Shown: piece after piece, positions 3,443 to 17,766 of the stretch
Position numbering within the stretch: the stretch's first letter is position 1
Layout of the letters: each line of letters opens with the position of its first letter
Position numbers and translations under genes: made by a program
Source of the DNA: a virus
Reading direction: 5' to 3' (one strand)
IMG/VR virus record: IMGVR_UViG_3300032298_000212
Span: 1 to 29,745 of that record
Length of the DNA: 29,745 nucleotides
The notes under the pieces: generated by a model
Databases searched by the model: none
What the model was told of the DNA's origin: nothing
What the model saw: only the letters and a program-made list of their open reading frames with translations

Positions 3443-3751
3443 TTATACTTTTAGAACTCCTTTGTTAAGTTCAAAATTTTCAAGGTCAGTTTGAGCCGTT
3501 GCGAACGCCTTGCCTCTATATATTAAGTTGTCATTTTCATTGATTGTAATCTCGAAACTTTGCCCCTCCTTTAAAATTGGCTCTTCAAAATCTAATATTA
3601 ACACATTATTTTGGTAAAATGTGCCTAAAATTTCAATCTCAATCGTTGTATCTCTTAGCTCATCCCTTAAATAAAACGTCAATTCGCCTCCGTTATAATT
3701 ACGAGGAATGCATTTGAATTGATAGGGCGCTGTTAAATTAAATATCCACAT
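3443..3751 (-). CDS. Small structural protein upstream of portal, unknown function
   Basis: A 102-residue beta-rich protein (ELTFYLRDELRDTTIEIEI, then VLILDFEEPILKEGQSFEI, then NLIYRGKAFATAQTDLENF). I recall similar small proteins next to head or tail genes in Bacteroidetes siphophages, but no function is known to me. It is the first gene of the unit that contains portal and connector. Its ATG at 3751 lies 5 bases downstream of the GTTATA half of the conserved bipartite element at 3757-3780, so its message is probably leaderless. A terminator at 3784-3812 separates it from the tail tube gene. Confidence 0.65.
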   Translation of the reverse strand: MWIFNLTAPYQFKCIPRNYNGGELTFYLRDELRDTTIEIEILGTFYQNNVLILDFEEPILKEGQSFEITINENDNLIYRGKAFATAQTDLENFELNKGVLKV

Positions 3752-3756
3752 ATATA

Positions 3757-3780
3757 TATAACTATAAAATAGTGTTTTGT
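3757..3780 (-). promoter_or_regulatory. Putative phage late promoter (ACAAAAC-N11-GTTATA), copy 1
   Basis: On the minus strand ACAAAAC (3780-3774) is followed by 11 bases and GTTATA (3762-3757); five bases later comes the start codon at 3751. The same arrangement with identical spacing occurs at 6433-6456 and 13380-13403, and the element itself also at 16275-16298. Here the extended upstream sequence is TTGTTACAAAAC, so TTGTTA would sit 17 bases from GTTATA, a sigma-70-like spacing. It follows directly on the terminator at 3784-3812. Confidence 0.65.
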
Positions 3781-3783
3781 AAC

Positions 3784-3812
3784 AAAAAAAGCCACCGAAG
3801 TGACTTTTTTTT
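3784..3812 (-). terminator. Intrinsic terminator after the tail tube gene
   Basis: Read on the minus strand, GTCAC-TTCG-GTGGC forms a five-pair stem (one U-G pair) closed by a UUCG tetraloop, followed by seven T. It is preceded by a run of A, so a longer A-U extended stem is possible. It lies 21 bases beyond the stop of the tail tube gene and just before the late-type element at 3757-3780, marking a transcription unit boundary. Confidence 0.75.
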
Positions 3813-3832
3813 AAACAAACTATGAAAGAAAA

Positions 3833-4357
3833 TTAGGAAACAACCACGTTGCTAACTAAAGCCATTAAATCGGCTTTCGTTGCAGTGTCCAAAAATGGAC
3901 TTAAATTGCTCTCTTCAGCATTAATCGTTAAAGTGAAACCTGATAAATCAGCTCCAGCTCCTCCGGTTACTTTTGTGCAGTTTGACATTGTTCCGTTAGC
4001 TGCACCAACTAAAAGAATATTTCCGTTATAATCCTCTACGAAAACGTAAGGACGAGATGCGCAAATCAATTGAATTTGACCTTGTAAGTCAGCTGACAAT
4101 TTTGGAAGTGTAACCGCTAAAGCTTGAGCGTTTAAAAATGTTCCGTTATCTTGTGAGCTTGTTCCAGTTTCAGTCAACGTATTGGTTGTCGCTTTTACTT
4201 CGTATTTAAAAACTTCCGGCAAAGTTCCCAAGTCAGTAACTTGGTGACCAGAGATAATAAAACCATAATCGTCGTAATTAGCGAAGTATAGATTTTTGTA
4301 ACCTCCTCTTTGATCCTTGCATCCTAAAAGTTTACCTTTTGATATTAAACAAGACAT
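3833..4357 (-). CDS. Major tail tube protein
   Basis: A 174-residue protein that would form the stacked rings of the tail tube. The layout matches the tube protein family I know from Bacteroidetes siphophages: MSCLISKGKLLGCKDQRGGY at the N-terminus, a short beta strand (KNLYFANYDDYG), a central 'FKYEVKATTNTLTETGTSSQ' region, a helix with ALAVTLPKLSADLQGQIQL, then RPYVFVEDYNGNILLVGAANG and GAGADLSGFTLTINAEESN near the C-terminus. Three of its cysteines lie in the first 15 or so residues or in the core, as in relatives. It follows the major capsid gene, from which a terminator at 4376-4403 separates it, and is itself followed by a UUCG terminator. Confidence 0.75.
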   Translation of the reverse strand: MSCLISKGKLLGCKDQRGGYKNLYFANYDDYGFIISGHQVTDLGTLPEVFKYEVKATTNTLTETGTSSQDNGTFLNAQALAVTLPKLSADLQGQIQLICASRPYVFVEDYNGNILLVGAANGTMSNCTKVTGGAGADLSGFTLTINAEESNLSPFLDTATKADLMALVSNVVVS

Positions 4358-4375
4358 ATATTTTTTATTTTTTTA

Positions 4376-4403
4376 TTAAAAACCGCCCAAGTTAATGAGC
4401 GGT
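4376..4403 (-). terminator. Intrinsic terminator after the major capsid gene
   Basis: On the minus strand an eight-pair stem (ACCGCTCA with TTGGGCGG-T, one U-G pair) with a six-base loop is followed by five T. It lies 16 bases after the capsid stop. Partial termination here would give more capsid than tube message, since I see no new promoter before the tube gene. Confidence 0.65.
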
Positions 4404-4418
4404 ATTTATGTTAATTAA

Positions 4419-5318
4419 TTAGTCTAAAGATAACCAAACGATTTCCTCAGCGTTGTAGTATCCAACACCTACAGCGTAAACTACCTTACCTCTAACTTTA
4501 CCAGTTAATAAACCGATTTCGTCTTCGTCAACAAGTGCAACTTGGTTGTAGTCAGCAGTTAATCCAGTAGCGAAAACTAAGTTTTTACGCTCATAGATAA
4601 CAACAGAGTTTGAAGGCAATCCGTTTAATACTACTAAAGCGTGACGACCGAATGAAAGTGGGAAGTCAGAGTTTCCGTTTCCGTAAACAATACCTTGAGT
4701 AGATAAATAGAAAGCGTAAGCCTGAGCAACGTCCGGAGAAACCGCAACGATTAACTCTTTATTTCTTAATGCAACCGGTACAGCGTTTAAAGCTGGTTTC
4801 AAATATTTAGTCAATACGTTAGCCTCAGTAACAGCAGCGTCAGCAGTTGGCTTGTTAACGTCAGCATCGTCAGCGAATAAAGTTAAGAATCCGTCGAAGT
4901 TTGTTGAAGACTGCCAAATGTCAGTTTCCAATTTTTCTCCGATAGCTCCTAAAACCTCAGCTTGGATTGCGTCCATAATGTCGCTCGGTGCTGTTCCGTT
5001 AGCAGCTCCAGCTCCCATAATTCCGTCGCTCCAAGTTTGACGAAAATCTTCTTTACAAACGTCAAAGTCATTTTTGAATTTGAAAGGCTCGATAGTATTT
5101 TCGTTTAATACGATAGTACCAGCTGGCGCAAATCCGCAAGTGTAAGCAGTTGTTCCGTCAGTGTAAGCGATTTTACGTAAAGACAATTTAAAGTTTACAT
5201 TCTCAGCGATAGTTACCGCGTTTTTTTCAATAGTGTCAATCGTTTTGAACGCTTGACCGATAATCATACCGGCAGCCGTGCCGTTATAATTTGATGATAC
5301 AGTTGTTGTTGTTGGCAT
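4419..5318 (-). CDS. Major capsid protein (HK97-like fold)
   Basis: A 299-residue protein following the protease gene by 11 bases, the usual place for the major capsid. It has a hydrophilic N-terminus (MPTTTTVSSNYNGTAAG), no obvious long scaffold region, a central helix (APSDIMDAIQAEVLGAIGEKLETDIWQ, the spine-like helix), then AVTEANVLTKYLKPALNAVP, the typical capsid pattern ELIVAVSPDVAQAYAFYLST, and a C-terminal beta region with ALVDEDEIGLLTGKVRGKVVYAVGVGYYNAE. Codon use is more biased to frequent codons than in neighbours, as expected for an abundant protein. The scaffold function may lie in the C-terminal part of the protease gene. Confidence 0.8.
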   Translation of the reverse strand: MPTTTTVSSNYNGTAAGMIIGQAFKTIDTIEKNAVTIAENVNFKLSLRKIAYTDGTTAYTCGFAPAGTIVLNENTIEPFKFKNDFDVCKEDFRQTWSDGIMGAGAANGTAPSDIMDAIQAEVLGAIGEKLETDIWQSSTNFDGFLTLFADDADVNKPTADAAVTEANVLTKYLKPALNAVPVALRNKELIVAVSPDVAQAYAFYLSTQGIVYGNGNSDFPLSFGRHALVVLNGLPSNSVVIYERKNLVFATGLTADYNQVALVDEDEIGLLTGKVRGKVVYAVGVGYYNAEEIVWLSLD

Positions 5319-5329
5319 CTTTTTTTAAT

Positions 5330-6427
5330 TTAATTTTTTAAGTTATTTAATATTTTTTGTGATCTTGTTAATTTCACATTTTTGTTTGAAGTTTCAGCAA
5401 CTTCCGGCTTTGCTTTTGTTGACGCTTTCACTTCAACTTGAGTAGTTTTAACCTCAGCAATTTGAGCGCTTAACTCAGTTTTGATTGCCTCAATTTGTTT
5501 TGAAACCTCAACGCTCATATTGGTAACGATAGCTTTTATCATTTCCTCAGTAGTCATTGCAACCTCAACTTCAATTTCAGCCTCAGGCGTTTCAACTTCC
5601 TCAGCCATTACTTCTTTAATTTCAGCAATAATACCCTCTTGAGTAATTACTAAAATTCGTCCGTCTTCAAGTTCGTGTTCTCCAACTGGAGCTGGAACTT
5701 TGTCGCCATTTTCAGCAACGATAAAAACCGCTTGCTCAGGCTCAAAAGCCTCAGCCTCTAAAATGGTAACACCATCTTTTAGCATCATTGTAGCCATTGC
5801 AATAACAACTTCAACTTGCTCAGCCTCGCTCGATAATTTTACCGATGCGAAACCCTCTTTTATCGCATTTACGATAGTTTCTAAATTCATATTGATTTCT
5901 GATTTTAAATTTACTTTCTCCATATCAAAGACTCCGTCAATCGAAAATCCTTTGACTTTGCCAGTCTTAATGTAATCGTTCCAAATCTCGTCGTTATTGA
6001 CTTTCATTGCAGCGTACCACGTTCCAATTGGCTCATTAAATCCGTACATTACGGACTTATCGTGCAGCTCATCCTCTTTAATCCAAGTCTCAACAAAAGT
6101 AACGTTTTCAATTTGCTTTCCTGAGTGTTCAATCGTTGAATTATTTTGATAACCTTGTTGACTAAAATTGTGTTGAACTTGTTTAATTGTTTCTTTTGGG
6201 AAAACGATATTAAATTCGTGTCCGTCTTGTACTCTATAAATTGGTTGGTTTGGTATTAATACCGCACCCAATAAAATTCTTTGCTCCTTGTTAATCGTTG
6301 CAAGTTTGATTTCCTTTTGTTTTGACAAGGTTACAAATTGCACTTCGATTGCCGGATCACTAACTAACGAGATTGCATAAACTCCCTCGTTTTCCTCTTC
6401 GTTAAATAAAACTTTATAAGTCTCCAT
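5330..6427 (-). CDS. XkdF-like prohead protease with scaffold-like C-terminus
   Basis: A 365-residue protein. Residues 1-170 or so match the XkdF-like putative serine protease family (PBSX element XkdF): METYKVLFNEEENEGVYAIS, the segment GAVLIPNQPIYR, then FSQQGYQNNSTIEHSG, and VTFVETWIKEDELHDKS and VKGFSIDGVF. This part would cleave scaffold during head maturation. Residues from about 190 to 365 are Ala/Glu/Val-rich and low in complexity (EVETPEAEIEVEVAM, KTELSAQIAEVKTTQVEVKA) and probably form a coiled-coil internal scaffold. The fusion explains the lack of a separate scaffold gene before the major capsid. The ATG is 5 bases from the GTTATA half of the late-type element at 6433-6456. Confidence 0.75.
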   Translation of the reverse strand: METYKVLFNEEENEGVYAISLVSDPAIEVQFVTLSKQKEIKLATINKEQRILLGAVLIPNQPIYRVQDGHEFNIVFPKETIKQVQHNFSQQGYQNNSTIEHSGKQIENVTFVETWIKEDELHDKSVMYGFNEPIGTWYAAMKVNNDEIWNDYIKTGKVKGFSIDGVFDMEKVNLKSEINMNLETIVNAIKEGFASVKLSSEAEQVEVVIAMATMMLKDGVTILEAEAFEPEQAVFIVAENGDKVPAPVGEHELEDGRILVITQEGIIAEIKEVMAEEVETPEAEIEVEVAMTTEEMIKAIVTNMSVEVSKQIEAIKTELSAQIAEVKTTQVEVKASTKAKPEVAETSNKNVKLTRSQKILNNLKN

Positions 6428-6432
6428 AATAC

Positions 6433-6456
6433 TATAACTTTTTTTTATTGTTTTGT
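6433..6456 (-). promoter_or_regulatory. Putative phage late promoter (ACAAAAC-N11-GTTATA), copy 2
   Basis: Minus strand: ACAAAAC at 6456-6450, an 11-base spacer of mostly A, GTTATA at 6438-6433, then 5 bases to the ATG at 6427. Spacing is identical to that upstream of the genes at 3751 and 13374. The flanking sequence TTTATAACAAAAC also forms an inverted repeat with the GTTATA half (GTTATA at 6455-6460 and TATAAC at 6433-6438 on the plus strand). It begins the protease-capsid unit. Confidence 0.65.
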
Positions 6457-6480
6457 TATAAACTTTTTACATTAATTTTT

Positions 6481-8376
6481 TTATCCTCCTATCGTTGCAT
6501 TCTTAATAATATTCCTATCGAGAGCCTGAGCAGTGCTTACGTCTGACGCTACGACATAACTTCTTATTGGCGTTTGAGCTTGACTTCCTATTGATTGAGC
6601 GAGTTGGTTTGTCGAGCTTGAGCCAACCGTGTTGAAACTCGGAGCAGTCATTGAGTTACCTCCGCTCGGTGCTGTTCCACCACCTCCACCACCTCCAGGC
6701 GTTTTAACGGCTAATATTTTTTGAACGTTTAACAATCCTCCGGCGATTGCTATACCGGCAGCGATTGTCGCTCTAATTGGTGCGTCCGGTGTTGGAATTG
6801 CTAACTGAGACTCGTAAGCCTTATTTGCTGCGCTATATGTTGAAATTGTCGCACTTGCTACGGCAGCAGCCTTTCCAGCAGTTGTTGACTCTCCTAACAT
6901 TCCGGCAATACTTCCTAAGGCGCTCCCGTAAGAGTCTAAGGCATCCATTTTAGCCTTTGCCTCAGCTTGAGCGATTTTAACTTTTGCGTCAGCTGTTGCT
7001 TTCTCTTTGTCAAGTTGTTTTTGTTTTTGTTCCGCATCCAAATTTTCCATATCGGAAATATGTTGCATTTCAAGTTCAAATGTACTTTGATTGGCTGCCT
7101 CTAAAATTGCTTTTTTCTCTTGAAATTCTCTCTCTAATTTTTGAGCTGGTGTCTCTTGACTTTTAGCCAAATCTTCCAAAATCTTTTGAGCGTCGTCTTG
7201 TCTTCTTTTTTCTGCGTCGGCTTGACTTTTATTTAATTCTTGAATAGCTTTGATATCCTCTTCGTCTCTTTTCTTTTTATCCTCAATCGCTTTTTTTCTT
7301 GCTCTTTCGGCATCGTCTTTTAGTTTTTGACTATGTTCTTTTGCTTTGTTTTCAACTTCTTTTTGATGATTAGTTTCGGCTTGTCGAATTTCAACTTGGT
7401 GTCTCAATTGAATATCCTTGCGCTCATCGTAAGCCTTTTTTAAATTTTCGCTTTGCTTATTAACTTGCTTAACCGACTCATTAACGACCTCCGTTTGTTT
7501 TTTAATTAAATCCTCGTCAGCTCCGGACGCTTTCAAAGACATTAAATAGTTTTTATTTTTTTCGTAGGTGTTCATCGCTACGGCTTTGGCTGACTTCTCG
7601 TAAGCGATTTTTTCGTCAATCAATTTTAACTCCAACGCTCTAATAGCTGACGCACTCGCTCCGGATGCTTTCGCCATTGCAAGCTCGTGACCTTGCTTTC
7701 TTTGTAATTCAGCCGAGTTTTTGTCTAGTGTTTGAGATTGACTTTTTATTGCTTTCTCATTATCTTTTACGGATGCCGTATTTTTAGCGGCTGCGTCTGA
7801 GCTTGACTTAAAATAATTTACCAACGCAACTCCAGCAGCAATCAAAGCCACAATTCCGGCAATAATTGCTCCGATTGGATTGGCTGCGATTGCAGCATTC
7901 CAAAGCCACTGACCGGCTGTGACTATTTTTTGAACTATTGTATATGATTTTGCAACGGCGCTCAATTGCTTAAATGAGTCAATACTTTCTCCGATAGTTT
8001 GCAAGCCTTGAGACAAAGCCATTGCAGCTTGAACTTTTAAAAGTGTTTGCTCAACCTCTTTTGATTGCGCTCCGAATAATGATTGCGCTCCTTGTACCGC
8101 TGCAAATCCTCCAGCAACTCCAGCCAAAGACGAACTCAACGCCTTAAATTTAGCGTCCGGATTAAAGGCATCCGTTAAGGCTCTTGCGTCTGCAATTTGA
8201 TCCTTTAATTGACCGGCTCTTTTAGCAGCCTCAATTGCCTCTTTTGAAGTAACTCCAAATTTTTCGGATAATGCAGCAACGTCAGCCTGAGCCTCCCTTA
8301 ATTGTGAGCGTAAACTTCCAACCCTTTCGTCTGCGTTGCTTTCAATTTTTATATCAATTACTTTCTCAATCGCCAT
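6481..8376 (-). CDS. Tape measure protein
   Basis: A 631-residue protein that sets tail length and is probably ejected with DNA. It begins with a predicted helix pair (SLRSQLREAQADVAALSEKF), has a hydrophobic segment at about 164-189 preceded by the ANPIGAIIAG motif that is common in tape measures, a long charged coiled coil from about 210 to 480 (many K/E/Q/A), and a glycine-rich linker near 565-575. The closing region (QTPIRSYVVASDVSTAQAL) is typical of Bacteroidetes phage tape measures. At about 1.5 angstrom per residue the tail would be near 95 nm, which is an inference from the family rule. It starts inside the end of a 48-residue gene and is followed by the protease unit. Confidence 0.85.
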   Translation of the reverse strand: MAIEKVIDIKIESNADERVGSLRSQLREAQADVAALSEKFGVTSKEAIEAAKRAGQLKDQIADARALTDAFNPDAKFKALSSSLAGVAGGFAAVQGAQSLFGAQSKEVEQTLLKVQAAMALSQGLQTIGESIDSFKQLSAVAKSYTIVQKIVTAGQWLWNAAIAANPIGAIIAGIVALIAAGVALVNYFKSSSDAAAKNTASVKDNEKAIKSQSQTLDKNSAELQRKQGHELAMAKASGASASAIRALELKLIDEKIAYEKSAKAVAMNTYEKNKNYLMSLKASGADEDLIKKQTEVVNESVKQVNKQSENLKKAYDERKDIQLRHQVEIRQAETNHQKEVENKAKEHSQKLKDDAERARKKAIEDKKKRDEEDIKAIQELNKSQADAEKRRQDDAQKILEDLAKSQETPAQKLEREFQEKKAILEAANQSTFELEMQHISDMENLDAEQKQKQLDKEKATADAKVKIAQAEAKAKMDALDSYGSALGSIAGMLGESTTAGKAAAVASATISTYSAANKAYESQLAIPTPDAPIRATIAAGIAIAGGLLNVQKILAVKTPGGGGGGGTAPSGGNSMTAPSFNTVGSSSTNQLAQSIGSQAQTPIRSYVVASDVSTAQALDRNIIKNATIGG

Positions 8377-8504
8377 TTTAATAAGTCTTTAAATTGTTGT
8401 AAATAGTTTTTTTTAAGTTCAAATTTTCCCTTAGCGGTTGCGATAATTTCATTGTGTTCGTATTGCTCAGCGTGTTTGAGCATTTGCAAAATATTTGTTA
8501 TCAT
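8358..8504 (-). CDS. Small protein between tail-tip and tape measure genes, unknown
   Basis: A 48-residue gene. The ATG at 8504-8502 overlaps the stop of the upstream 680-residue gene (ATGA), and the end overlaps the tape measure start by 19 bases. This tight packing fills what would otherwise be a 124-base gap and is the main argument that it is real. The protein begins MITNILQMLKHAEQYE, has a basic helical middle (TAKGKFELKKNYLQQ) and ends KWRLRK. I do not recognise a family. Confidence 0.6.
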   Translation of the reverse strand: MITNILQMLKHAEQYEHNEIIATAKGKFELKKNYLQQFKDLLKWRLRK

Positions 8505-10543
8505 AATTCATTTAAAAGCTCAATGTCGCTCTCTCCATTTGTTAAGTTAGTAGTTATTTTATTAATTCTAAAAAGACGATCCACAATTTTAAACCTATCA
8601 TTTAGCTTTAAATTCATAAAAATACTAATTGGCAAAATTGCTTTGATTTTCGTTAGTCTATTTTTAGGATTAAAAACTTGCATAATATAATCCTGATAAT
8701 ATTTAAAAAATAATGTATCGGTAAAATCGTTAGTTGCAGTCCATTCGTTTAATTCAGCTTTGAAATTTATATTTGAAGTCCCGGTTGTTGGATCTAAATA
8801 AACCGAGTTTGACGGCAAAATATATTTACTAATCTCTTGATGAGTTGATGTTGTTTTTTTAAACGAAAACGCCACATTATCATTATAAATAGGATAAAAT
8901 AAAAGCGGTTTATTAAGTGACGACTCGTAGTTACCAGTAGCAGCGTTAAAATTGTCGTTTGCTGAATAACCCCACTGAATATCCGTAACGCCATTGTCAA
9001 AAATATTGTACAATCTCTCGAATTTCATATGAGAAAACGGAAGAGTTACTTTATAAACGCCTCCCTCAATTTCCGGTAACTCATTATAAATCTCTTTTGC
9101 CCAGTCGTAATTGAATTGCTGGCTATGTTTTAAAGCTAAAAGTGTCTTTGTGTCTTCATAACCAAACTCAACTTGTTTAAATGGTAGAGCCACGTTAACG
9201 CTTTTACTATCTACTTTAATATATTTAGTAATATTATGTACGTTTCCAGTACTATAAAAGTCGTTTAATGTCTTTACTACTATTATATTATTCTCAACGT
9301 AAGCGGTCAAATTAAACATTTTAAAAAGTCCGGTTAAAAAATCCAAAACTTTTAACTCAGGGATTTGCTGAGCAATATCGAAAATAAAATCATTTATAGT
9401 ATTAAAAGCTGGTGCTGTATAAACGTCAAAAACTACACTTGTCGGATTGTCAGGGAAATCAAAACGAGGTAAATTTAAATCGATTAAGTCCATTGTAATA
9501 ATTACCTGAGATTGAATAAAAAATGTATAATTTGCAACATCAATAATTCCTAAATCTAAATAAGCGTTTCCGTTCAAAGTATTACTTTGAAAATATAAAA
9601 CTCCGTTTCTAAATACACTTATTCTATAATCGTCAGTTGAGGTTGTCGTAGTTTGAATATAAGAATTCCCAGCTGTATAATCTTGAGTTACGTGCAAAAT
9701 TGTCGAGTTCTCAAAATAACTATCGACTCCAGTTCCCGTCCACGTATCGATTAACTCCGGAGGTAAAATATTTGAGTCAACTCCTTGAACGTTTCCTTTA
9801 CTTCGGTGCAACCACATAAATAATTGATAATAATCCATATTTGAATTATTAAAAAAATCATTACTAAAAGTTAATCCGTATTGACTCTCGATTGCTCTGA
9901 TTATTTTATCAATTCGAATAGCATATTTTAACTCGCTCCACAAAAGTCCGTGATTGTGAGTTGAGCCTGATTGATAAAATAAATTTCTATCGTCCTCAGA
10001 ATGTCCGGTTGAACTATCGTAATAATACCTATTTGTGTGAGAGATAAAAGGAACTATCACGTCTTCAATTGTCGGATCTTCTTGAAAATAAGTCAATACC
10101 TCATCTGCATTATAAATTTTATTATAAGCCGACAAAGGCAAAGCGTTCAATTTATCCTCTCCGATTAAGTCGTTGAGCTTTATCGTATCTCCGTAGTAAG
10201 TAATTCTATAAGCGTAAGGCTGATTATTTTGCAAGTCAACGCCCTCGAGTTTGATTTTACCACTATTAAATCGGTTTGAGTCAATTTCAATATAGCCGTC
10301 AATTCTTACTCTCGCATCAAAGCCTCCCTCAATATCGTAATTATAATAGTGTTTAAATAAACGATTATTTTCTGAGGTTGCTGGAATTGAGAACGACTTA
10401 GAAAAGTCGGTAAATACTTTGGAAATGTCTTGAACGTCTTGGATAACTTGAGTTATTGAAATTGTCTCGTCGTTAAATAAATCCGTCCTTTGAAATTTAC
10501 CGGTTGTATTGTCTTTTAAAAATAAGGCTAGCGTTAAATCCAT
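8501..10543 (-). CDS. Large tail-tip/baseplate protein, putative
   Basis: A 680-residue protein, starting directly after the stop of the 369-residue gene with no gap. It opens with MDLTLALFLKDNTTGKFQR, then QDVQDISKVFTDFSKSFSIP, a pattern I know from large tail proteins of Bacteroidetes phages ('F..P.S..N...F' followed by 'Y...I..GFD'). The middle is rich in Tyr, Asn and beta segments; the C-terminus has NLKLNDRFKIVDRLFRINKITTNL, similar to the end of hub-type (Tal/gp27-like) proteins. I infer a structural role at the tail tip. No peptidase or lysozyme motif is evident. It sits upstream of the tape measure, whereas tail-tip genes normally follow it. Confidence 0.6.
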   Translation of the reverse strand: MDLTLALFLKDNTTGKFQRTDLFNDETISITQVIQDVQDISKVFTDFSKSFSIPATSENNRLFKHYYNYDIEGGFDARVRIDGYIEIDSNRFNSGKIKLEGVDLQNNQPYAYRITYYGDTIKLNDLIGEDKLNALPLSAYNKIYNADEVLTYFQEDPTIEDVIVPFISHTNRYYYDSSTGHSEDDRNLFYQSGSTHNHGLLWSELKYAIRIDKIIRAIESQYGLTFSNDFFNNSNMDYYQLFMWLHRSKGNVQGVDSNILPPELIDTWTGTGVDSYFENSTILHVTQDYTAGNSYIQTTTTSTDDYRISVFRNGVLYFQSNTLNGNAYLDLGIIDVANYTFFIQSQVIITMDLIDLNLPRFDFPDNPTSVVFDVYTAPAFNTINDFIFDIAQQIPELKVLDFLTGLFKMFNLTAYVENNIIVVKTLNDFYSTGNVHNITKYIKVDSKSVNVALPFKQVEFGYEDTKTLLALKHSQQFNYDWAKEIYNELPEIEGGVYKVTLPFSHMKFERLYNIFDNGVTDIQWGYSANDNFNAATGNYESSLNKPLLFYPIYNDNVAFSFKKTTSTHQEISKYILPSNSVYLDPTTGTSNINFKAELNEWTATNDFTDTLFFKYYQDYIMQVFNPKNRLTKIKAILPISIFMNLKLNDRFKIVDRLFRINKITTNLTNGESDIELLNEL

Positions 10544-11653
10544 TTAAATAGCGTCGTTAATTAAATTATAACTATATTCAAAATCAATCTCGTAGTTAAT
10601 CAATCTATTTTTTAATTTAGTTTTTAGCTCAGTGCCTTGAGTTTTTACAATTACCGGCTTACGATCCAACAAAACGGTCTCGCTTAAAAGTAAGTCAGTA
10701 ATTAGTTCGTTATAACTTTCGTCAATCCAACCGGAATTAACTTTTATCGTTTGAGTTCCTACAAAATTAAAGGACTTATTTTGACCTCTTAACGCTGTAT
10801 AATTTACGTTATCCGGACTCAATTTATAATCACTATTTTTGACGCTTAAATTATTGGTTTGAGCTTTGTAAAAAGTCAAAGTCTGCCAGCCTCCCTCTCT
10901 ATTTATAAAGTCAATTAATACCGGCGTATATTTTGGCTCGCAAATTGGATAGGTATAAAATGGATCAAATGTAATTGGAGACGCTCCGTCAGGAAATAAC
11001 GTGATTGTAACGCTACAACCATTTACATAAGCGTTGTCAATTTTGACTAACGAAATCGGAATGCGATATAAATAAACTCCAATCAAATTATCCTGATTGA
11101 TTGACGTCGGATAACTTACTCCGTCAATGCGGTCATAAGTTACATTTAAAACGTCGCCCAAACTTTGAAAGTCAACCAATATATTTAAATATTGAATTGT
11201 ATTTGTAGGATAAGTATTTTGTATTTGATAGTTATTTTTTATGTCTGAATTAAATAATAAATCTACTCTACTATTAACAGCAGTTTGTAATCCGTCCATA
11301 TATTGAGTGAAACCATTTACCCCAACGTAGTCAGTCGTATCAATTAATTCGTAAGTACCGGCGTTATTCCAATATCTTTTGACTTTAAATAAAGCAAAAT
11401 TTTCGTTATAATCCCAACCGATATAATTTGGATAATTTGGCGCAATATTATCGATAAATTCCTTAACGAAATTTGATATATTATAATAATTTGATACGTT
11501 TGTTGGATCAGGCGACGGCTTGCTCAAGGTGTATCTCGGAGAGATTGGAGGGACTTCGCCTTGTCTCCAAATAAATAACTCTATTTTAGAGCCAATTTGC
11601 CCAGCCTCAGTGACTTCAATTACAAACGGACTTCTTACTTTAACTACTTTCAT
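10544..11653 (-). CDS. Tail-tip structural protein, putative (distal-tail-like)
   Basis: A 369-residue beta-rich protein in the tail module, adjacent on both sides (no gap) to the gp10-like gene and the 680-residue gene. It begins MKVVKVRSPFVIEVTEAGQI, contains YNISNFVKEFIDNIAPNYP and the segment CEPKYTPVLIDFINREGGWQ followed by LTFYKAQTNNLSV, and ends with LLDRKPVIVKTQGTELK and INYEIDFEYSYNLIND. The combination of 'GGWQ..TFY', a late 'L...PV.VK' strand and a final 'I.F.Y..N' is known to me from structural proteins of flavobacterial phages without a proven role. Its place with the hub-like gene suggests a distal tail or baseplate component. Confidence 0.55.
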   Translation of the reverse strand: MKVVKVRSPFVIEVTEAGQIGSKIELFIWRQGEVPPISPRYTLSKPSPDPTNVSNYYNISNFVKEFIDNIAPNYPNYIGWDYNENFALFKVKRYWNNAGTYELIDTTDYVGVNGFTQYMDGLQTAVNSRVDLLFNSDIKNNYQIQNTYPTNTIQYLNILVDFQSLGDVLNVTYDRIDGVSYPTSINQDNLIGVYLYRIPISLVKIDNAYVNGCSVTITLFPDGASPITFDPFYTYPICEPKYTPVLIDFINREGGWQTLTFYKAQTNNLSVKNSDYKLSPDNVNYTALRGQNKSFNFVGTQTIKVNSGWIDESYNELITDLLLSETVLLDRKPVIVKTQGTELKTKLKNRLINYEIDFEYSYNLINDAI

Positions 11654-12178
11654 TTATTTAATATCTTTTAATGTAAATTCTAAAAACGACTCCAAATCCA
11701 AGCCGTACTTTTCAGCTATATTATTGTCAAAATCTTTGTACTCATTGTCAAACGCATTCCTAAAAAATCTCGTCTCGTATGTTCCCGTCCTATTTATCGA
11801 GTTTGTTATCGAGGTAACCATTAATTTACGATTTGTAAATTGACCTCCAGCGCCTCGCACTCCTTGAATGCCTTTGCGAATAACCCACTTATCAATTGCA
11901 CTCCTTGAGGCGTTTGCTTTGTACGGAGAATTTGGAGCTTTTGCACTTGACTCACTTCCTTTCGTTCCGTAATCTAATTGCGCCCAATAATCCTCAGCAT
12001 AAAAATCAAACTCGATTGAGTTTTTATTCTCTTTGGCTTTGTACTCTAAAGACTTCGACAATTGGCCGGATGCGTTATGCGTTCCGTAACGTCCTCCGAC
12101 TTTTAGATTTTGCCTCGCTCTTTCGACAACCGATTGACCGAACTCGTTGAGCGCTTGCTGTACGTTTTTAATCTCCAT
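11654..12178 (-). CDS. HK97 gp10-like head-tail/tail completion protein
   Basis: The protein from Met at 12178 has 174 residues. An open frame extends 16 codons further to a GTG at 12226, but that would overlap the upstream gene by 59 bases, while the ATG at 12178 overlaps by 11 and gives the typical start MEIKNVQQALNEFGQSVVER. The pattern of a helix with a basic face, SGQLSKSLEYKAKENKNSIEF, YWAQLDYGTKGSES, then an APNSPYKA loop and a helix ending RGAGGQFTNRK matches the HK97 gp10 / phage tail completion family ('A..Y..yvE.GT' motif). It probably joins neck and tail. Confidence 0.65.
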   Translation of the reverse strand: MEIKNVQQALNEFGQSVVERARQNLKVGGRYGTHNASGQLSKSLEYKAKENKNSIEFDFYAEDYWAQLDYGTKGSESSAKAPNSPYKANASRSAIDKWVIRKGIQGVRGAGGQFTNRKLMVTSITNSINRTGTYETRFFRNAFDNEYKDFDNNIAEKYGLDLESFLEFTLKDIK

Positions 12179-12632
12179 TGCAACAAACTCCAAAATCGTT
12201 ATTCGGTACGCTAATTTCAATATCACACTTCCAGCCGTCTAAGGCATTCGTAAACGCTAAAAGTATCGGTTGCAAACTCGGATCGTTTTGTAATTCAATA
12301 TCAAACTCATTACGTTGCAATCGCATTTTCGTAATCATATAATTGAGGATTGCGTGGCAAGTGTTGAGGTTGTCAAGCTCGTTGTCGTTCCCTAAGAATT
12401 TATCTTTTACATTTATCTTTGACATATTACGAATATCGACAACAGCCACCTCGAAAGTAAAATTGACAACTCCATTATTAATTGAAGAGCTGAGTATATT
12501 AATATGAGCGAGCGGAAATATATTTTTTTTAACATTGTCGATTATGTCAGTGCCGTGAGTAATTGTATTTAAAAGAGGTGCGCTCTCCAACGTACTCTTA
12601 ATGTAATCTATTGCCTGATAAAATGCTCTCAT
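12168..12632 (-). CDS. Tail terminator/completion-type protein, putative
   Basis: A 154-residue protein. Its ATG overlaps the stop of the frameshift extension of the tail chaperone (ATGA at 12632-12629). Features I associate with tail terminator-like proteins of Bacteroidetes phages: an N-terminal helix (MRAFYQAIDYIKSTLE), then LLNTITHGTDIIDNVKKNIF, PLAHINILSSSINNGVVNF, a strand FTFEVAVVDIR, a cluster NELDNLNTCHAILNYMI, and a C-terminal LDGWKCDIEISVPN. It would cap the tail tube or link it to the neck. Not certain; the family is poorly characterised. Confidence 0.55.
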   Translation of the reverse strand: MRAFYQAIDYIKSTLESAPLLNTITHGTDIIDNVKKNIFPLAHINILSSSINNGVVNFTFEVAVVDIRNMSKINVKDKFLGNDNELDNLNTCHAILNYMITKMRLQRNEFDIELQNDPSLQPILLAFTNALDGWKCDIEISVPNNDFGVCCNGD

Positions 12633-12889
12633 TTTTTAAAGTGATTTTTAATTTGTTTTGCCTCCTCTTTGCTTTCGTCGATTAAGTAAGATAATAACGT
12701 GAGTGACTCGTGAAGAGGCTCGTTTCCAACGTCTCGAGGCTTAATTCTAAGCTCTCTTGAAAGTCTAACAAAAGATTGATACCAACCCCAGCGCTCGTTG
12801 AAACCTCCTCGAGAAATTTCCCCTCCCTCATCGCCTTGCTCTCCAAATGCGATAGGATATTGCTCAATAATTCCTTGCTTAAATTCCAA
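12629..12889 (-). CDS. Tail assembly chaperone, -1 frame extension
   Basis: This frame encodes 86 residues, including GGFNERWGWYQSFVRLSREL and HESLTLLSYLIDESKEEAKQ. The 'WGW..S...L' followed by '..L...L' and 'Y L...K.E' pattern is the one of the second tail chaperone product in Bacteroidetes siphophages. It has no Met codon at all; the only available start is a TTG at 12889-12887 placed directly on the slippery T run, so an independent start is unlikely. It overlaps the 0 frame of the 230-residue chaperone for 208 bases. Read by a -1 shift after codon 162 of that gene, it gives a fusion of about 248 residues ending at 12629, as in lambda G/GT. Confidence 0.7.
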   Translation of the reverse strand: MEFKQGIIEQYPIAFGEQGDEGGEISRGGFNERWGWYQSFVRLSRELRIKPRDVGNEPLHESLTLLSYLIDESKEEAKQIKNHFKK

Positions 12890-13374
12890 AAAAAAAGAAT
12901 AGAGCCAGTAACAACGTCCATTCTTACGTCGTTAAATAAATCGGCTTTGCTCTCGTCTCCGTCGTAATCCTCAATTTGATAAAACGGCATCGCTGACTTT
13001 GTAATTGGACGATATAATACTGACATCAATAGCGCCAAATTATCCTGATCTCCGAGTAATGTGTCAATCGTTGCGTGTTCTCCGATAGTCATTTTGTCTA
13101 AGTTCGGAATAAATCCATAATGCACTCCGTTCATTTTAAACGTCCTAACGAGCTGAGGTTTTTGATCCAATACCTTAGCCAATTGCTCAACGATTTCAGC
13201 GAAGTCGTTAACCGGTATTTTCATAACGTCAGCCACGCTCAAGTTACAAAATATCGCAACCATTTGAATGCAAACAAAAGTCTCATCGTCCTGGTTGTCT
13301 TTTACTACTTTTAAATATCTCAAATACTGAGACAATTTAATCTCCTTTAAATCCGTTGGAATTACTACTCTCAT
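12682..13374 (-). CDS. Tail assembly chaperone (G-like, 0 frame)
   Basis: A 230-residue protein. The N-terminal pattern (MRVVIPTDLKEIKLSQYLRY, then VAIFCNLSVADVMKIP, NGVHYGFIPNLDKMTIGEHA) matches a tail chaperone-like family found in Bacteroidetes phages: 'YGFIP.Ld.iT.GE' is its hallmark. The continuation SILFFWNLSKELLSNILSHL also fits that family, so the full 0-frame product is probably made. It contains the T9 slippery run at codons 160-163. It begins the second late unit: the ATG at 13374 is 5 bases from GTTATA of the element at 13380-13403. The product would bind the tape measure during tail assembly. Confidence 0.7.
   Translation of the reverse strand: MRVVIPTDLKEIKLSQYLRYLKVVKDNQDDETFVCIQMVAIFCNLSVADVMKIPVNDFAEIVEQLAKVLDQKPQLVRTFKMNGVHYGFIPNLDKMTIGEHATIDTLLGDQDNLALLMSVLYRPITKSAMPFYQIEDYDGDESKADLFNDVRMDVVTGSILFFWNLSKELLSNILSHLESKAMREGKFLEEVSTSAGVGINLLLDFQESLELSLETLETSLFTSHSRYYLT
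12888..12897 (-). other. Probable -1 ribosomal frameshift site
   Basis: Minus strand C followed by nine T. In the 0 frame it reads CTT TTT TTT TGG (codons 160-163 of the chaperone), so the heptamer T TTT TTT is available for a -1 slip, after which reading continues TTG GAA into the extension frame. No Met exists downstream in that frame. I did not find an obvious strong pseudoknot by eye. An indel error in this homopolymer is the alternative. Confidence 0.65.
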
Positions 13375-13379
13375 ATATA

Positions 13380-13403
13380 TATAACTAAAAAAAGTCGTTT
13401 TGT
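13380..13403 (-). promoter_or_regulatory. Putative phage late promoter (ACAAAAC-N11-GTTATA), copy 3
   Basis: Minus strand: ACAAAAC at 13403-13397, spacer of 11, GTTATA at 13385-13380, then 5 bases (TATAT, the same as copy 1) to the ATG at 13374. Located in the 38-base gap between terL and the tail chaperone, where no other feature explains it. Confidence 0.65.
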
Positions 13404-13412
13404 TTATTTTTT

Positions 13413-14576
13413 TTATGTAATTATAACTCGTCTCGATTTGTTTATTGCGAGACTCATCATTGCGAAGTATCTCAAAGCGTCGATTGCGTGGTTAAATTCG
13501 TCGATAGGTCGGTTTAATTTTTTGCCGGTTTTGTCAACATCCCAGCTATAATTGCGTAGCTCCTTAATTAAATTGGTGCTTGACTTTGTGACTAAGATTT
13601 CCTTTTGTTGTAATACCGAGATACCATAATTGATTGAGTCAGCTCCTTTGACAACCGGCTTAATATTAAACCCGGCTCGTCTTATCTCCTCTATTGACTT
13701 TGGTTCGGCTGAGTCAGCCCAAATTGGAGCGGTGCGTTCCTGTTTCATTAGTCGAATTATATCTGAGTTCAAAAGTGAGGTTGAATAAATCATTTCGTCA
13801 ACGATTATTTTGCCGTTGTAATCATAAACTCCAACGTGAGCCGTTGGATCGTTTGAATAACCAAAGTCAAGTCCACTCCCTAAGAATTTTGCCTCAGGCG
13901 GTATTGTGTCGATTGTCTCCCAATTTTGAAATATCACTCCCTCAAGTGAGCCGAGTTGACCGAGTCCGTAAACGTTCCACCAATTCGCCCAATAAGTTGA
14001 GGTTGACGCTTTGTCTTTTGCTTTCTCAATCTCTTTGACAATTGCCGGATCGAGAGCCTCGTTATCTTTGTACGTCAAAATAACAAAGTCAGAGTCGGCA
14101 TCGTTTAAGAGTTCCGTTTGTACCCAAAATTCATTTGTTGGATTGTAGTCAAGGTATATGAATTTTTTAGTACGGACGGCTAATTGCTGGTAACTTTCAA
14201 AGTCGATATTATTGCACTCGTTTACGAATAGAATATCACGTCTCGCTCCTCGTAATTTGTCAGGTTGGTCGACGCTAAAAAATTCAATATAAGAATTATT
14301 TGAGAATGTATATTTAAGTGACGACCGGTTGAAATTAGCATCTCGATAGTTGTCAGTTAGGAGCATTATTTTTTGGAAGTCTTTTAAAGCTCCACGTTTC
14401 AAATGAGGGATTGACTCACTAACTATTGAAATCTCTGAAAAGGGATTTTGAATAGCGTAAGTAATAAGCAAAGGCAATATCGAAAACGTTTTGGAACTAC
14501 TCGTCCCACCTTGCACAATCCTAACTCGTTTTCTTAATTTGGCGATTTTACTCTGAGCCGTCGTTTTCTGGAACAT
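13413..14576 (-). CDS. terL: Terminase large subunit
   Basis: A 387-residue DNA packaging motor. Walker A is GGTSSSKT at 23-30 with the TSSSKT form typical of PBSX-type terminases; Walker B is ILFVNE at 115-120, with the coupling motif YNPTN at 144-148. The nuclease domain shows GLDFGY (Asp237), WADSAEP (Asp288) and a late DEFNHAIDALRY (Asp359 and Asp366). The length is slightly short but normal for this group. The start overlaps the small subunit by 29 bases. A headful (pac) mechanism would fit the circularly permuted assembly, but no pac site can be identified by eye. Confidence 0.9.
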   Translation of the reverse strand: MFQKTTAQSKIAKLRKRVRIVQGGTSSSKTFSILPLLITYAIQNPFSEISIVSESIPHLKRGALKDFQKIMLLTDNYRDANFNRSSLKYTFSNNSYIEFFSVDQPDKLRGARRDILFVNECNNIDFESYQQLAVRTKKFIYLDYNPTNEFWVQTELLNDADSDFVILTYKDNEALDPAIVKEIEKAKDKASTSTYWANWWNVYGLGQLGSLEGVIFQNWETIDTIPPEAKFLGSGLDFGYSNDPTAHVGVYDYNGKIIVDEMIYSTSLLNSDIIRLMKQERTAPIWADSAEPKSIEEIRRAGFNIKPVVKGADSINYGISVLQQKEILVTKSSTNLIKELRNYSWDVDKTGKKLNRPIDEFNHAIDALRYFAMMSLAINKSRRVIIT

Positions 14577-14862
14577 CCAAATCGAGTGAATTAAAAATCG
14601 GTTTTTCTATATTTAAATTCATTTCCGTTTCCACTTTTTTAGGCACGAAATATTGAGCGTACTTTGCGAATAGTTCCAAATATTTATATGGATCTTTGTC
14701 TAAGACATCGGCAAAGGCTTGGTGTATGTTTGGCACTTGAGCCTCCAACGTTTGAACGAATAAAGCTCTCGCCTCAGATATCAATTTAGTCTCTGCGCCT
14801 TTCGGTTTTAATCCTCCGTGACCTTTTTTAAGTCTTCCGTTTTCGTCTCTACTACTTTCCAT
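14548..14862 (-). CDS. terS: Terminase small subunit, putative
   Basis: A 104-residue protein directly before and overlapping terL by 29 bases. It begins with a charged segment (MESSRDENGRLKKGHGGLKP) with the motif 'DENGRLKKG..G.KP', common at the start of small terminase subunits of Bacteroidetes phages, followed by helices (AETKLISEARALFVQTLEAQ; DPYKYLELFAKYAQYF) and an acidic tail. It would recognise phage DNA and start packaging. The assignment rests mostly on position and general pattern; I do not see a clear helix-turn-helix. Confidence 0.7.
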   Translation of the reverse strand: MESSRDENGRLKKGHGGLKPKGAETKLISEARALFVQTLEAQVPNIHQAFADVLDKDPYKYLELFAKYAQYFVPKKVETEMNLNIEKPIFNSLDLDVPENDGSE

Positions 14863-14875
14863 ATCTTACAATAAT

Positions 14876-15091
14876 TTATTGAATTTGATATTTACCTAAA
14901 ATAACCTCGTTATTTGTCAAAAACTCCGACGTAAACAATTTAAAGCCGTTGTGAGACTTCTTTTTTAATAACTTATATAAGTTGCTCGGCATCCAAATTT
15001 CGTTCGCTGATAGGTCTGCTGGTGCGTTTTCGATTATAGCGTCCAAAAATTCGTAAAATTCGGCTTGCTGTTGTTTTTTAGTTATTTTCAT
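14876..15091 (-). CDS. Hypothetical protein before the terminase genes
   Basis: A 71-residue protein (MKITKKQQQAEFYEFLDAII, then EIWMPSNLYKLLKKKSHNGF) that I do not recognise. Its helical start and a 'P..LY..L' helix could form a small DNA-binding fold, but this is speculation. It lies 13 bases before terS and 147 bases after the four-cysteine protein; the gap upstream contains a hairpin with a T run close to its start codon. Confidence 0.55.
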   Translation of the reverse strand: MKITKKQQQAEFYEFLDAIIENAPADLSANEIWMPSNLYKLLKKKSHNGFKLFTSEFLTNNEVILGKYQIQ

Positions 15092-15102
15092 AATTATATT
15101 TT

Positions 15103-15132
15103 AAAAAAAAATGTTAGCCTTTCCCTCCTAAC
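15103..15132 (-). terminator. Weak hairpin with T9 run in the 15092-15238 gap
   Basis: On the minus strand GTTAG...CTAAC (five pairs, ten-base loop) is followed by A and nine T, about 12 bases before the ATG at 15091. The stem is short, so this is a weak terminator or attenuator candidate. The rest of the 147-base gap holds a second small inverted repeat (CTTTAG/CTAAAG) and no promoter I can recognise. Confidence 0.35.
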
Positions 15133-15238
15133 TTACTAACTTGCAAAATATGACTCCTTAGTTTTGCTCCCGTTTCACAACCTTGTAAAGTAGGTTTAAA
15201 CTCCCTTTAGTTTTCTTTACTTTCTAAAGCCAGTATTT

Positions 15239-15610
15239 TTATTTAAAATTATATAATTTATATAAATCTTTGATTATTGCCTCGTGTACTTTTGAGCAAC
15301 TTGAGCAATTTGAGTTATCGATACCAAAATAATAAGAATAAAGTCCGTTTAAAAATTCAGCATCCTCAAAATTTAACTCGGTACGCTTTCCGTCGATTAC
15401 TCTTTGACCTTTTACGTCTAAAAATATTCTAAAATGTTCTTTGTCGATTGCTGTCATTTCCGATTTTACCTTTTTAAAGTTAAATAATCGGTTAAGTCCA
15501 AATCGTCTCTCCTCGCATCCTTGACACGGCTCAATTCCTACGGCTGAGGTTACAGCTGCAACCACATCGCCAAGTCCCTGAATTTCTTTTTTAGTTCTTC
15601 TTTTTGCCAT
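15239..15610 (-). CDS. Four-cysteine (zinc-binding) protein, unknown
   Basis: A 123-residue protein with two CxxC pairs: CQGCEERR at about 34-41 and CSSCSKV at about 102-108. The N-terminus is basic (MAKRRTKKEIQGLGDVVAAV). The spacing of the two CxxC pairs suggests one zinc-binding site joining the ends of the chain. I recall proteins with the pattern 'GLGD.V..VT.a.GI..C.GC..R...LN..F' in Bacteroidetes phages without known function. It overlaps the end of the sigma-like gene by 20 bases, so the two are co-translated, and it could be a transcription or packaging accessory factor. Confidence 0.6.
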   Translation of the reverse strand: MAKRRTKKEIQGLGDVVAAVTSAVGIEPCQGCEERRFGLNRLFNFKKVKSEMTAIDKEHFRIFLDVKGQRVIDGKRTELNFEDAEFLNGLYSYYFGIDNSNCSSCSKVHEAIIKDLYKLYNFK

Positions 15611-16019
15611 TTAATTTATTTTTTACCATTTTATTAATCCGGTGTATAGTTTGAATGTGAATGCCGGTTTGTCTTGAGAGTTCTCGTTGACCTAAGAGCG
15701 TTGATTGTTCAAACATCGTTCTCTCGTACCAGGTTAAGTCTTTTGATAGCTCTGAATAATCAATTCCCTCACAATATTCCTCATCTTCGACTTCAAAATT
15801 ACTAAAATCGTCGATTAAAATATCGTTATTTTTAAGAGAGTCATAAAATAATGACCTCAAAGTTACAAAAATATATCCGTCAGTGACCGGAATAGTCCTC
15901 TCTGATAATTTAATATACATATTTTGAACCAACTCGTCCGCTAAGTCCTTGCTCTTGCAAATTTGAAAAGCCATTTTACGCCACTGAGCGTCCTTTTTAG
16001 CGAGTTCGTGAATTATCAA
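15591..16019 (-). CDS. Sigma-70-family-like protein (phage late sigma candidate)
   Basis: A 142-residue protein with a sigma region 2-like N-terminal half (WRKMAFQICKSKDLADELVQ at 13-32, then NMYIKL, and YIFVTLRSLFYDSLK at 49-63, matching the '..DLVQ..fi.l' and '..yl....rn...D.lR' signatures) and a C-terminal helix-turn-helix like region 4.2 (LLGQRELSRQTGIHIQTIHR at 108-127, then MVKNKL). The linker between them is acidic. It starts with TTG at 16019, coupled to the previous stop (TTGA); the next Met is residue 16, which would cut region 2. I infer an alternative sigma or sigma-like activator for late genes. It is the second gene of the unit whose promoter carries the late-type element. Confidence 0.7.
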   Translation of the reverse strand: MIIHELAKKDAQWRKMAFQICKSKDLADELVQNMYIKLSERTIPVTDGYIFVTLRSLFYDSLKNNDILIDDFSNFEVEDEEYCEGIDYSELSKDLTWYERTMFEQSTLLGQRELSRQTGIHIQTIHRINKMVKNKLNGKKKN

Positions 16020-16249
16020 AGCCTCATCGGATTAAAATACTCACTTAAAAAATGCAATACGTGAGTTTCATTTTCAATATAATATGCCGTACCTCGAATA
16101 ATTAACACAATTTCCTCCGGAGACTCAACCCAATATCCGTCGATACTATCGACGTTGACTCTAAAATCGACAAACAATCCATTGAGTCCGAGATTGTCGT
16201 CTTCCTGTTCCAACCACATTTGAGTCGATATTGTGTACGGTTTTATCAT
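16016..16249 (-). CDS. Small protein before the sigma-like gene, unknown
   Basis: A 77-residue acidic protein with the start MIKPYTISTQMWLEQEDDNL, a middle FRVNVDSIDGYWVE and an end EIVLIIRGTAYYIENETHV. I do not recognise a family. It is the first gene of the sigma-like unit and its stop overlaps the sigma-like start (TTGA). Its ATG sits five bases from the end of a host-type -7 box, so the message from that promoter is probably leaderless. Confidence 0.6.
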   Translation of the reverse strand: MIKPYTISTQMWLEQEDDNLGLNGLFVDFRVNVDSIDGYWVESPEEIVLIIRGTAYYIENETHVLHFLSEYFNPMRL

Positions 16250-16253
16250 TTGA

Positions 16254-16286
16254 CAAATATACTAATTATATTGATATAACTACAAA
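16254..16286 (-). promoter_or_regulatory. Host-type promoter before the sigma-like unit
   Basis: Minus strand TTTG (16286-16283), 21 bases, TATATTTG (16261-16254), a good match to the Bacteroidetes -33/-7 pattern. The box ends four bases before the ATG at 16249, so transcription would begin at or very near the start codon. The spacer contains GTTATA of the late-type element. Confidence 0.6.
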
Positions 16287-16298
16287 AATTGGTTTTGT
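16275..16298 (-). promoter_or_regulatory. Late-type element (ACAAAAC-N11-GTTATA), copy 4, overlapping a host promoter
   Basis: Minus strand ACAAAAC (16298-16292), 11 bases, GTTATA (16280-16275), with TTGTTA in front as in copy 1. Unlike the other three copies, GTTATA is 25 bases from the next ATG, and it overlaps the host-type promoter at 16254-16286. Positive feedback or a switch from host to phage control is a possible meaning. Confidence 0.55.
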
Positions 16299-16916: not shown

Positions 16917-17152
16917 AACTTCCTAACAAAATTATCATTATAGTCAAACTCCAACTCAAAAAATTCTCCATTGTCTAAATACTTAAATGTATAAATGTAA
17001 TGAGAGCAAAAGGCTTTTTTTTCGTTGCTCCACTTCTCCGGCATCTCTAAATTTTTAGCCGTTCCAATCATTCGGAACTCACGCCCAACCGTTCCGACTT
17101 GAGGCAATAAGTGTATACCTATTTTATTATTCTTTACAATTAGATAGTCCAT
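16913..17152 (-). CDS. Hypothetical protein downstream of the Mom-like gene
   Basis: A 79-residue protein, MDYLIVKNNKIGIHLLPQVG at the start, EMPEKWSNEKKAFCSH in the middle and FFELEFDYNDNFVRKL at the end; probably a small beta-rich fold. I do not recognise a family. Its ATG shares one base with the stop of the Mom-like gene (TAATG), so the two are co-translated, and a partner role in DNA modification is possible but unproven. Confidence 0.55.
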   Translation of the reverse strand: MDYLIVKNNKIGIHLLPQVGTVGREFRMIGTAKNLEMPEKWSNEKKAFCSHYIYTFKYLDNGEFFELEFDYNDNFVRKL

Positions 17153-17766
17153 TATTTTAAAATATAAATAAATTTCAATTGTCTTCCCTCTGCTTTTTTA
17201 ATATTTGGATAAATTTGTTGCATCAATTGCCATTTTCGAGTTTTATGTCTATGCCACATTGTAACCGGATGAATTCTCTCTCCATTTTCTAAAATATAAA
17301 AATCTGATTTTATATCGTCAATTAATTTATAATTTGCAGCTTTGTAAATTGTGCCATTATTTCCAACGCTGGTATCTGAATAAGATATTAATGCCTTTAA
17401 TTTAGGATAACATTTTTTTAAAAAATTATGTAACAACGACAAAGTAATAGTCTCAGAAAATTTCGGCATTTCATCACTTAGCCACATCCTATCAAACTCC
17501 CTAACTTCATCCGAATTATAAATACCTTTTATTTTTGGTCTTATTCCATAACCCAATTGTAAAGCTCCGTGTATTTCTCCTTTCCAATAAACTAAAAAAT
17601 TTAAAAAACTATTTTTTGTCGGCTTTTTAGAATAATGATTTTTTGAAATTATAATATCGGCTTGACTTTTTTCGCAAACCATTATTTTAATATCTTTGAT
17701 TTTACATTCGTAACCGATTATATAATTAGTCCAGTCATAAATAGGAGCTTTTTTTAAATTAGACAT
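17152..17766 (-). CDS. Mom-like DNA modification protein (GNAT fold)
   Basis: A 204-residue protein when started at the ATG at 17766, which shares a base with the upstream stop (TAATG). An upstream ATG at 17787 would add seven residues and overlap by 22 bases. It resembles the phage Mu Mom family, which makes the methylcarbamoyl modification of adenine: HYSKKPTKNSFLNFLVYWKG, then ALQLGYGIRP, the segment EVREFDRMWLSDEMPKFSET, then LLHNFLKKCYPKLKALISYS and the hallmark DTSVGNNGTIYKAANYKL. The 'E..R.wl.de.pk.sE' and 'iSY.D...G..GTIY.A..' motifs are the family signature. It would alter phage DNA to resist restriction. The exact base product cannot be read from sequence. Confidence 0.8.
   Translation of the reverse strand: MSNLKKAPIYDWTNYIIGYECKIKDIKIMVCEKSQADIIISKNHYSKKPTKNSFLNFLVYWKGEIHGALQLGYGIRPKIKGIYNSDEVREFDRMWLSDEMPKFSETITLSLLHNFLKKCYPKLKALISYSDTSVGNNGTIYKAANYKLIDDIKSDFYILENGERIHPVTMWHRHKTRKWQLMQQIYPNIKKAEGRQLKFIYILK

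Follow-up and report, generated by a model that had tools for sequence, protein, structure and literature searches.

In bacteriophage T4, the late genes are turned on by the phage sigma-like protein gp55, which works at promoters made of a single box (TATAAATA), depends on the sliding clamp and uses no −35 box. Phage sigma factors with late promoters of their own are an established kind, known from a few phages. The phiEco32 protein gp36, also a phage sigma for middle and late genes, reads the single box tAATGTAtA, with transcription starting 6–8 bases downstream, and comes without a recognizable region 4 or −35 box (PMC8948821). In Salmonella phage 7-11, the sigma factor gp47 reads promoters of the form GTAAtg-16-aCTA (PMC8948821; PMC4331800), and the sigma gene itself sits behind both host and phage promoters (PMC4331800). 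Among bacteria, the usual boxes of ECF sigma factors are AAC at −35 and CGT at −10 (PMC4153023), while sigma-P has AACA at −35 (PMC8791391).

Here we analyzed an entire virus record, 29,745 bases long (the window), in which nearly all genes lie on the minus strand and which appears to hold an undescribed family of this kind, comprising a small ECF-like sigma factor and a two-box element that would be its late promoter. As in 7-11, which is likewise a tailed phage encoding a sigma, two-box late promoters are predicted at the starts of a few structural units, the host's sigma would read the early genes, and the sigma gene lies behind a host-type and a phage-type promoter. The two nevertheless differ in box sequences, host phylum and start-codon geometry, and the likeness is one of arrangement between a system proven biochemically and one that we infer. 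Late genes would be turned on by a phage sigma-like protein as in T4 and phiEco32, but T4 lacks a −35 box and gp36 lacks both region 4 and that box, whereas the window system has both regions and both boxes. With bacterial ECF promoters (PMC4153023; sigma-P, PMC8791391), the window shares (A/T)ACA and GTT cores, a spacing of 15–17 bases and a sigma of regions 2 and 4; unlike them, it has an extra AAAY after the −35 core, TATA after GTT and a phage setting, and no anti-sigma gene was identified in it.

The window contains exactly four copies of the element, ACAAAAC-N11-GTTATA, each on the coding strand and ahead of a unit start, at 3757–3780 (copy 1, pre-portal/portal unit), 6433–6456 (copy 2, protease/major capsid unit), 13380–13403 (copy 3, tail unit) and 16275–16298 (copy 4, sigma/terminase operon), all on the minus strand. 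These coordinates, the strand and the 11-base spacing had been given in a preliminary description of this DNA and proved exact, as did its distance of 5 bases between GTTATA and the ATGs at 3751, 6427 and 13374, and its TTGTTA, which overlaps copies 1 and 4 at their leading end and lies 17 bases from GTTATA. For copy 4, the distance to the ATG at 16249 is 25 bases. No other copy had been noticed by eye, and indeed there is no fifth exact copy in the window, the nearest other site (9032–9055, plus strand) having two mismatches. Sixty first-order Markov copies of the window yielded one exact match altogether, versus four in the real window. With up to three mismatches, the pattern is at background in the window (34 found versus 26.8 expected), so that the signal resides in the near-exact sites. 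A weight matrix of 30 columns, trained on 31 sites from ten relatives with the window excluded, scored the four sites at 35.8, 33.8, 28.8 and 27.8 bits, whereas the next-best window position on either strand reached 4.9 bits, a gap of more than 20 bits, and the top score in 60 random Markov windows was 14.9. Across the window and its near-complete close relatives, only the four sites stood out in the matrix scan, and no comparable matches lay inside genes, where the preliminary description had held that many equally good ones would speak against a promoter.

The genes that follow the four copies all lie on the minus strand. Copy 1 is followed by a small pre-portal gene (3443–3751), copy 2 by an XkdF-type head protease (5330–6427; PF14550, 1.3e-13) and copy 3 by a tail assembly chaperone-like gene (12682–13374), so named from gene order and a weak Phage_TAC_7 match below cut-off. 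The operon behind copy 4 opens with a conserved 77-aa gene without a family match (16016–16249), continues with the ECF-like sigma factor proposed to read the element (15591–16019, TTG start, 142 aa) and includes the large terminase (13413–14576). Directly before copy 1, a hairpin followed by a T-run (3784–3812, minus strand) has the sequence and predicted folding of an intrinsic terminator; it was unlisted in a simple terminator scan and is kept in relatives though its stem sequence varies. As the hairpin and T-run would end the capsid unit right before copy 1, a new start is needed there. Within the tail-chaperone gene, a −1 frame stays open for ~86 codons (12889–12629, minus strand) after a nine-T run at ~12895, and this stretch (12629–12900) resembles the G/GT-type programmed frameshift of tail assembly chaperones.

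To place the element in a wider context, we obtained 80 relatives via the terminase and searched and read 20 of their records whole or nearly whole. The near-complete close relatives carry the same four sites in the same order, ahead of the sigma/terminase operon, tail chaperone, protease and pre-portal gene, and no fifth place in them approaches the four with the relatives-trained matrix. Both halves are held in ortholog upstreams while spacer and flank letters change, and the spacer is exactly 11 bases in 49 of 52 relatives' sites (8–14 allowed) and in all 78 tail-chaperone upstreams. When viral contigs were scanned for the pattern plus an ATG, whether or not they were relatives, 73 sites mapped to the starts of only three of the window's genes (33 tail chaperone, 21 pre-portal and 19 protease), and the element was also present at the equivalent genes of phages with ~30–40% protein identity. 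We put the probability that the element is the promoter of the structural units at about 0.95. A DNA-binding protein could also account for a pair of short conserved halves a fixed distance apart, in which case the element would be the site at which a phage repressor or activator common to the units acts, an operator and not a −35/−10 pair itself. This is very improbable, given that the halves are neither inverted nor direct repeats, that the orientation of the element to its gene is fixed in the relatives' sites, and that the fixed 5–7 bases to the first ATG, together with an ECF-like box geometry, suit a start site.

For the promoter reading, the halves are best taken as the −35 box (A/T)ACAAAAY and the −10 box GTTATA of an ECF-type promoter, to judge from their sequence: 16 bases separate (A/T)AC, which opens the first half in the window family, from GTT, which opens the second. 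The 11-base "spacer" would then be part of a −35/−10 spacing of 15–16 bases, and AAAY would be a conserved extension of the −35 box. The base before GTT is A in 33 of 42 cases and C in only 5 of 42, where the ECF form would have C, so that the agreement with ECF promoters is partial. Several other promoter types were considered. A sigma-70 reading of the halves (nnnACA-N17-TATA) fits the spacing equally well, but it would leave the ATG just 4 bases past the −10 hexamer and is ill-suited to an ECF-like sigma, and it was set aside. A T4-type late promoter, with one TATAAATA-like box and no −35, was rejected on finding two conserved boxes at fixed spacing instead. A scan for canonical E. coli-type promoters, which is uninformative for Bacteroidota, gave 76 scattered sites versus 53 in shuffles.

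We next consider the protein encoded at 15591–16019. In nearly every relative with a contig extending that far, a homolog adjoins the terminase, and Pfam Sigma70_r2 was detected in 26 of 37 aligned homologs (best 8.8e-9), while the window's own protein had no Pfam match below E = 1. A profile search of PDB sequences returned sigma factors only, with Bartonella RpoE on top (1.9e-5). The predicted structure, of modest confidence (pTM 0.43), consists of two helical domains with a weakly predicted linker between them. Foldseek matches it best to ECF sigmas (probability 1.00, best E 4e-3), with low TM-scores that probably stem from differing domain orientation. Region 2 was thus recognized via Pfam and the PDB profile, and region 4 only as a helix-turn-helix in the model. 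The homologs and the two-domain model together assign the predicted protein to an ECF-like sigma family with regions 2 and 4 only. The Foldseek list also has an RNA-guided transcription complex (9n9q). In bacterial genomes we found no close relatives and two distant ones only, so that the family seems restricted to phages; one of the distant relatives, on a Flagellimonas onchidii contig (L297, 10001–10417), shares 24% identity. Most relatives have, immediately behind the sigma gene, a conserved gene for a lysine-rich 123-aa protein with two CxxC motifs (15239–15610, minus strand, in the window), a candidate sigma partner.

The element and the sigma factor occur together across lineages of related loci, some of which have diverged elements. 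Among terminase-selected loci of the Fpv5 type, the element is present in the single one with sigma, as ACAAAAA-N12-GTTTTA-N5-ATG at the tail chaperone, and in none of 15 without it. Among those of the G031 type, 15 of the 18 loci with sigma have it, as do 9 of the 43 that lack sigma, where the site count is near control (15 versus 12). In the sigma-bearing G033 type, elements close to the terminase have diverged or were not detected, and a whole record of this type has exact copies at other genes. The sigma (E 1e-11 to 1e-15) is encoded by all three distant syntenic motif carriers with records long enough; it was found in none of the motif records lacking synteny that were tested. Because the loci and phages are related and the loci partly fragments, these counts are not independent events, and the numbers support a link between sigma and element rather than measure its strength.

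A link of this sort bears on the possibility that the element is a phage promoter read by the host polymerase with a housekeeping or other host sigma, helped by a phage activator on the ACAAAAC half, with the sigma-like protein doing something else. The host polymerase is present anyway, the −10 is TATA-rich, and some motif carriers have no detectable sigma, though most of these are short fragments. By contrast, the element tracks the sigma family across lineages and changes along with it, and the Bacteroidota housekeeping −7 box TAHHTTTG is missing from the elements at structural genes, a host-type box being found upstream of the tail chaperone in 1 of 78 cases and upstream of the protease in 0 of 27. 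The exact element is also rare in host-family chromosomes, with 23 matches in 201 Mb (60 genomes) versus 60 for a backward control, this set being a Flavobacteriaceae-type family picked via a Flagellimonas genome that may not be that of the true host; the window, whose host is probably among the flavobacteria, has four in 0.03 Mb versus those 23 in 201 Mb. We therefore regard a host sigma as an unlikely reader, and consider it highly probable, on sequence grounds, that the phage's ECF-like sigma reads the element. A phage-specific promoter of late units, read by the phage's sigma-like protein, had been proposed in the preliminary description and is the best reading of all the tests run.

Among 50,697 phage records, a detectable homolog of the sigma was present only in the Nonlabens phages P12024S and P12024L, where the record notes Sigma-70 region 2. 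Matches to the window-type element in these two phages are chance-like, with two mismatches. A sibling element, AAC-N17-CGTT(AAT), which gives the best fit to the ECF boxes AAC and CGT, is found there instead, with six copies per phage, all on the coding strand, 4–5 bases before an annotated gene and none intragenic; five of the six sites have this spacing and the sixth is one base shorter. Shuffles are expected to hold 0.02–0.04 copies versus the six observed, a significance that is post hoc, as the pattern was first recognized in upstream regions, though every match lies at a gene start. In the 58% sigma clade (L077–L084), the tail-chaperone −10 half is GTCTTA in most members and GTTATA in L079 and L081. 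These two keep GTCTTA at the pre-portal gene, and the sigma proteins of the clade are nearly identical, so that one sigma may accept both forms.

The sigma operon differs from the structural units in its upstream region. In the window, the host-type −7 box TATATTTG (16254–16261, minus strand) lies between copy 4 and the ATG at 16249, 4 bases from the latter. The preliminary description had set the halves apart from host-type promoters, which is borne out at the structural units, whereas copy 4 is accompanied by this host-like box as well. Promoters of F. johnsoniae have the −7 sequence TAHHTTTG, 4–5 bases before the start (PMC6847099). Of 57 distinct sigma-operon upstreams, 41 carry the element, and in 38 of these 41 a host-type −7 box lies no more than 35 bases from the ATG; its usual form is TATATTTG, 4 bases before the start codon. 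These sequences support the view that copy 4, combined with the host-type box, would drive the operon holding the sigma gene itself, and suggest a host-driven start followed by self-activation. Taking these observations together, we propose that the element is the late promoter of a family of small tailed phages, probably of flavobacteria, and that, early in infection, the host's sigma would read the −7 box TATATTTG at the sigma operon, giving the first phage sigma. This protein would bind the host core polymerase, read (A/T)ACAAAAY and GTTATA, activate its own operon via copy 4 and switch on the tail, capsid and portal units via copies 3, 2 and 1, respectively, and transcription of these three would probably start on the A of the ATG, yielding leaderless mRNAs.

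The distance between element and start codon bears on this last step. All 78 tail-chaperone sites have an ATG 5–7 bases past the element. It is the gene's own ATG, 5 bases from GTTATA, at 65 of these, while at the other 13 the gene starts 17–18 bases from the element and the nearer ATG, at 6–7 bases, opens a four-codon frame (MIYL, MIFL, MVYL, MAYL or MTYL) whose TGA overlaps the gene's ATG (ATGA). The frame, M-x-(Y/F)-L-stop, is found in L051–L059, L062–L064 and L075 and is kept while codons 2 and 3 vary; the 13 cases are apparently one lineage and represent a single event kept with changes rather than 13. In 7-11 and phiEco32, transcription starts 6–9 bases from the element (PMC8948821), a range that, applied to the window, begins at the A of the ATG for the three units. 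The three structural units are likely to be leaderless, while leaderless transcription is not probable at the sigma operon, with its 25 bases. Most F. johnsoniae transcripts have leaders of more than 10 bases (PMC6847099), which would make leaderless late mRNAs unusual for such a host.

An exact 5 bases to the ATG in most copies could also be taken to mean that the element does its work within the mRNA, signaling translation or processing close to the start codon. At the sigma-operon copies, however, the distance is mostly 25–26 or 10–11 bases, a variability that makes the element independent of the ATG and argues against a translation signal. With 10–26 bases at most sigma-operon copies and 17–18 at the 13 tail-chaperone copies, the element itself is unchanged; moreover, the strict spacing of the halves reaches ~24 bases upstream, and one site comes directly after a terminator. 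An mRNA signal is accordingly the least probable of the alternatives. Under the promoter reading, we give even odds to a promoter locked to the start codon, in which structural mRNAs would be leaderless and, where the gene start drifted 11 bases downstream, the kept four-codon frame would feed ribosomes to the gene. If such a lock holds, leaderless messages would be made in hosts where most mRNAs have leaders and Shine-Dalgarno sites are missing, and leaderless late mRNAs would show how a phylum that initiates without Shine-Dalgarno sites deals with such messages.

A literature search on flavobacterial or Bacteroidetes phages, late promoters and sigma factors, with subscription journals largely outside its scope, found no paper, and late-gene timing in Bacteroidota phages seems undescribed. 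The present analysis names a sigma, a promoter, a regulon and a probable early-to-late switch, which are testable in the cultured phages P12024S and P12024L. Sigma–promoter pairs drifting together (GTTATA with spacer 11; CGTTAAT with spacer 12–13) form a natural series for co-evolution, and the pairs are candidate orthogonal promoters for Flavobacterium genetics. Elsewhere in the window, a Mom-like DNA modification protein (17152–17787, minus strand; PF25680, 4.6e-39), present in just 3 of the 80 relatives' loci, is encoded next to a probable DNA cytosine methyltransferase gene (18119–19198).
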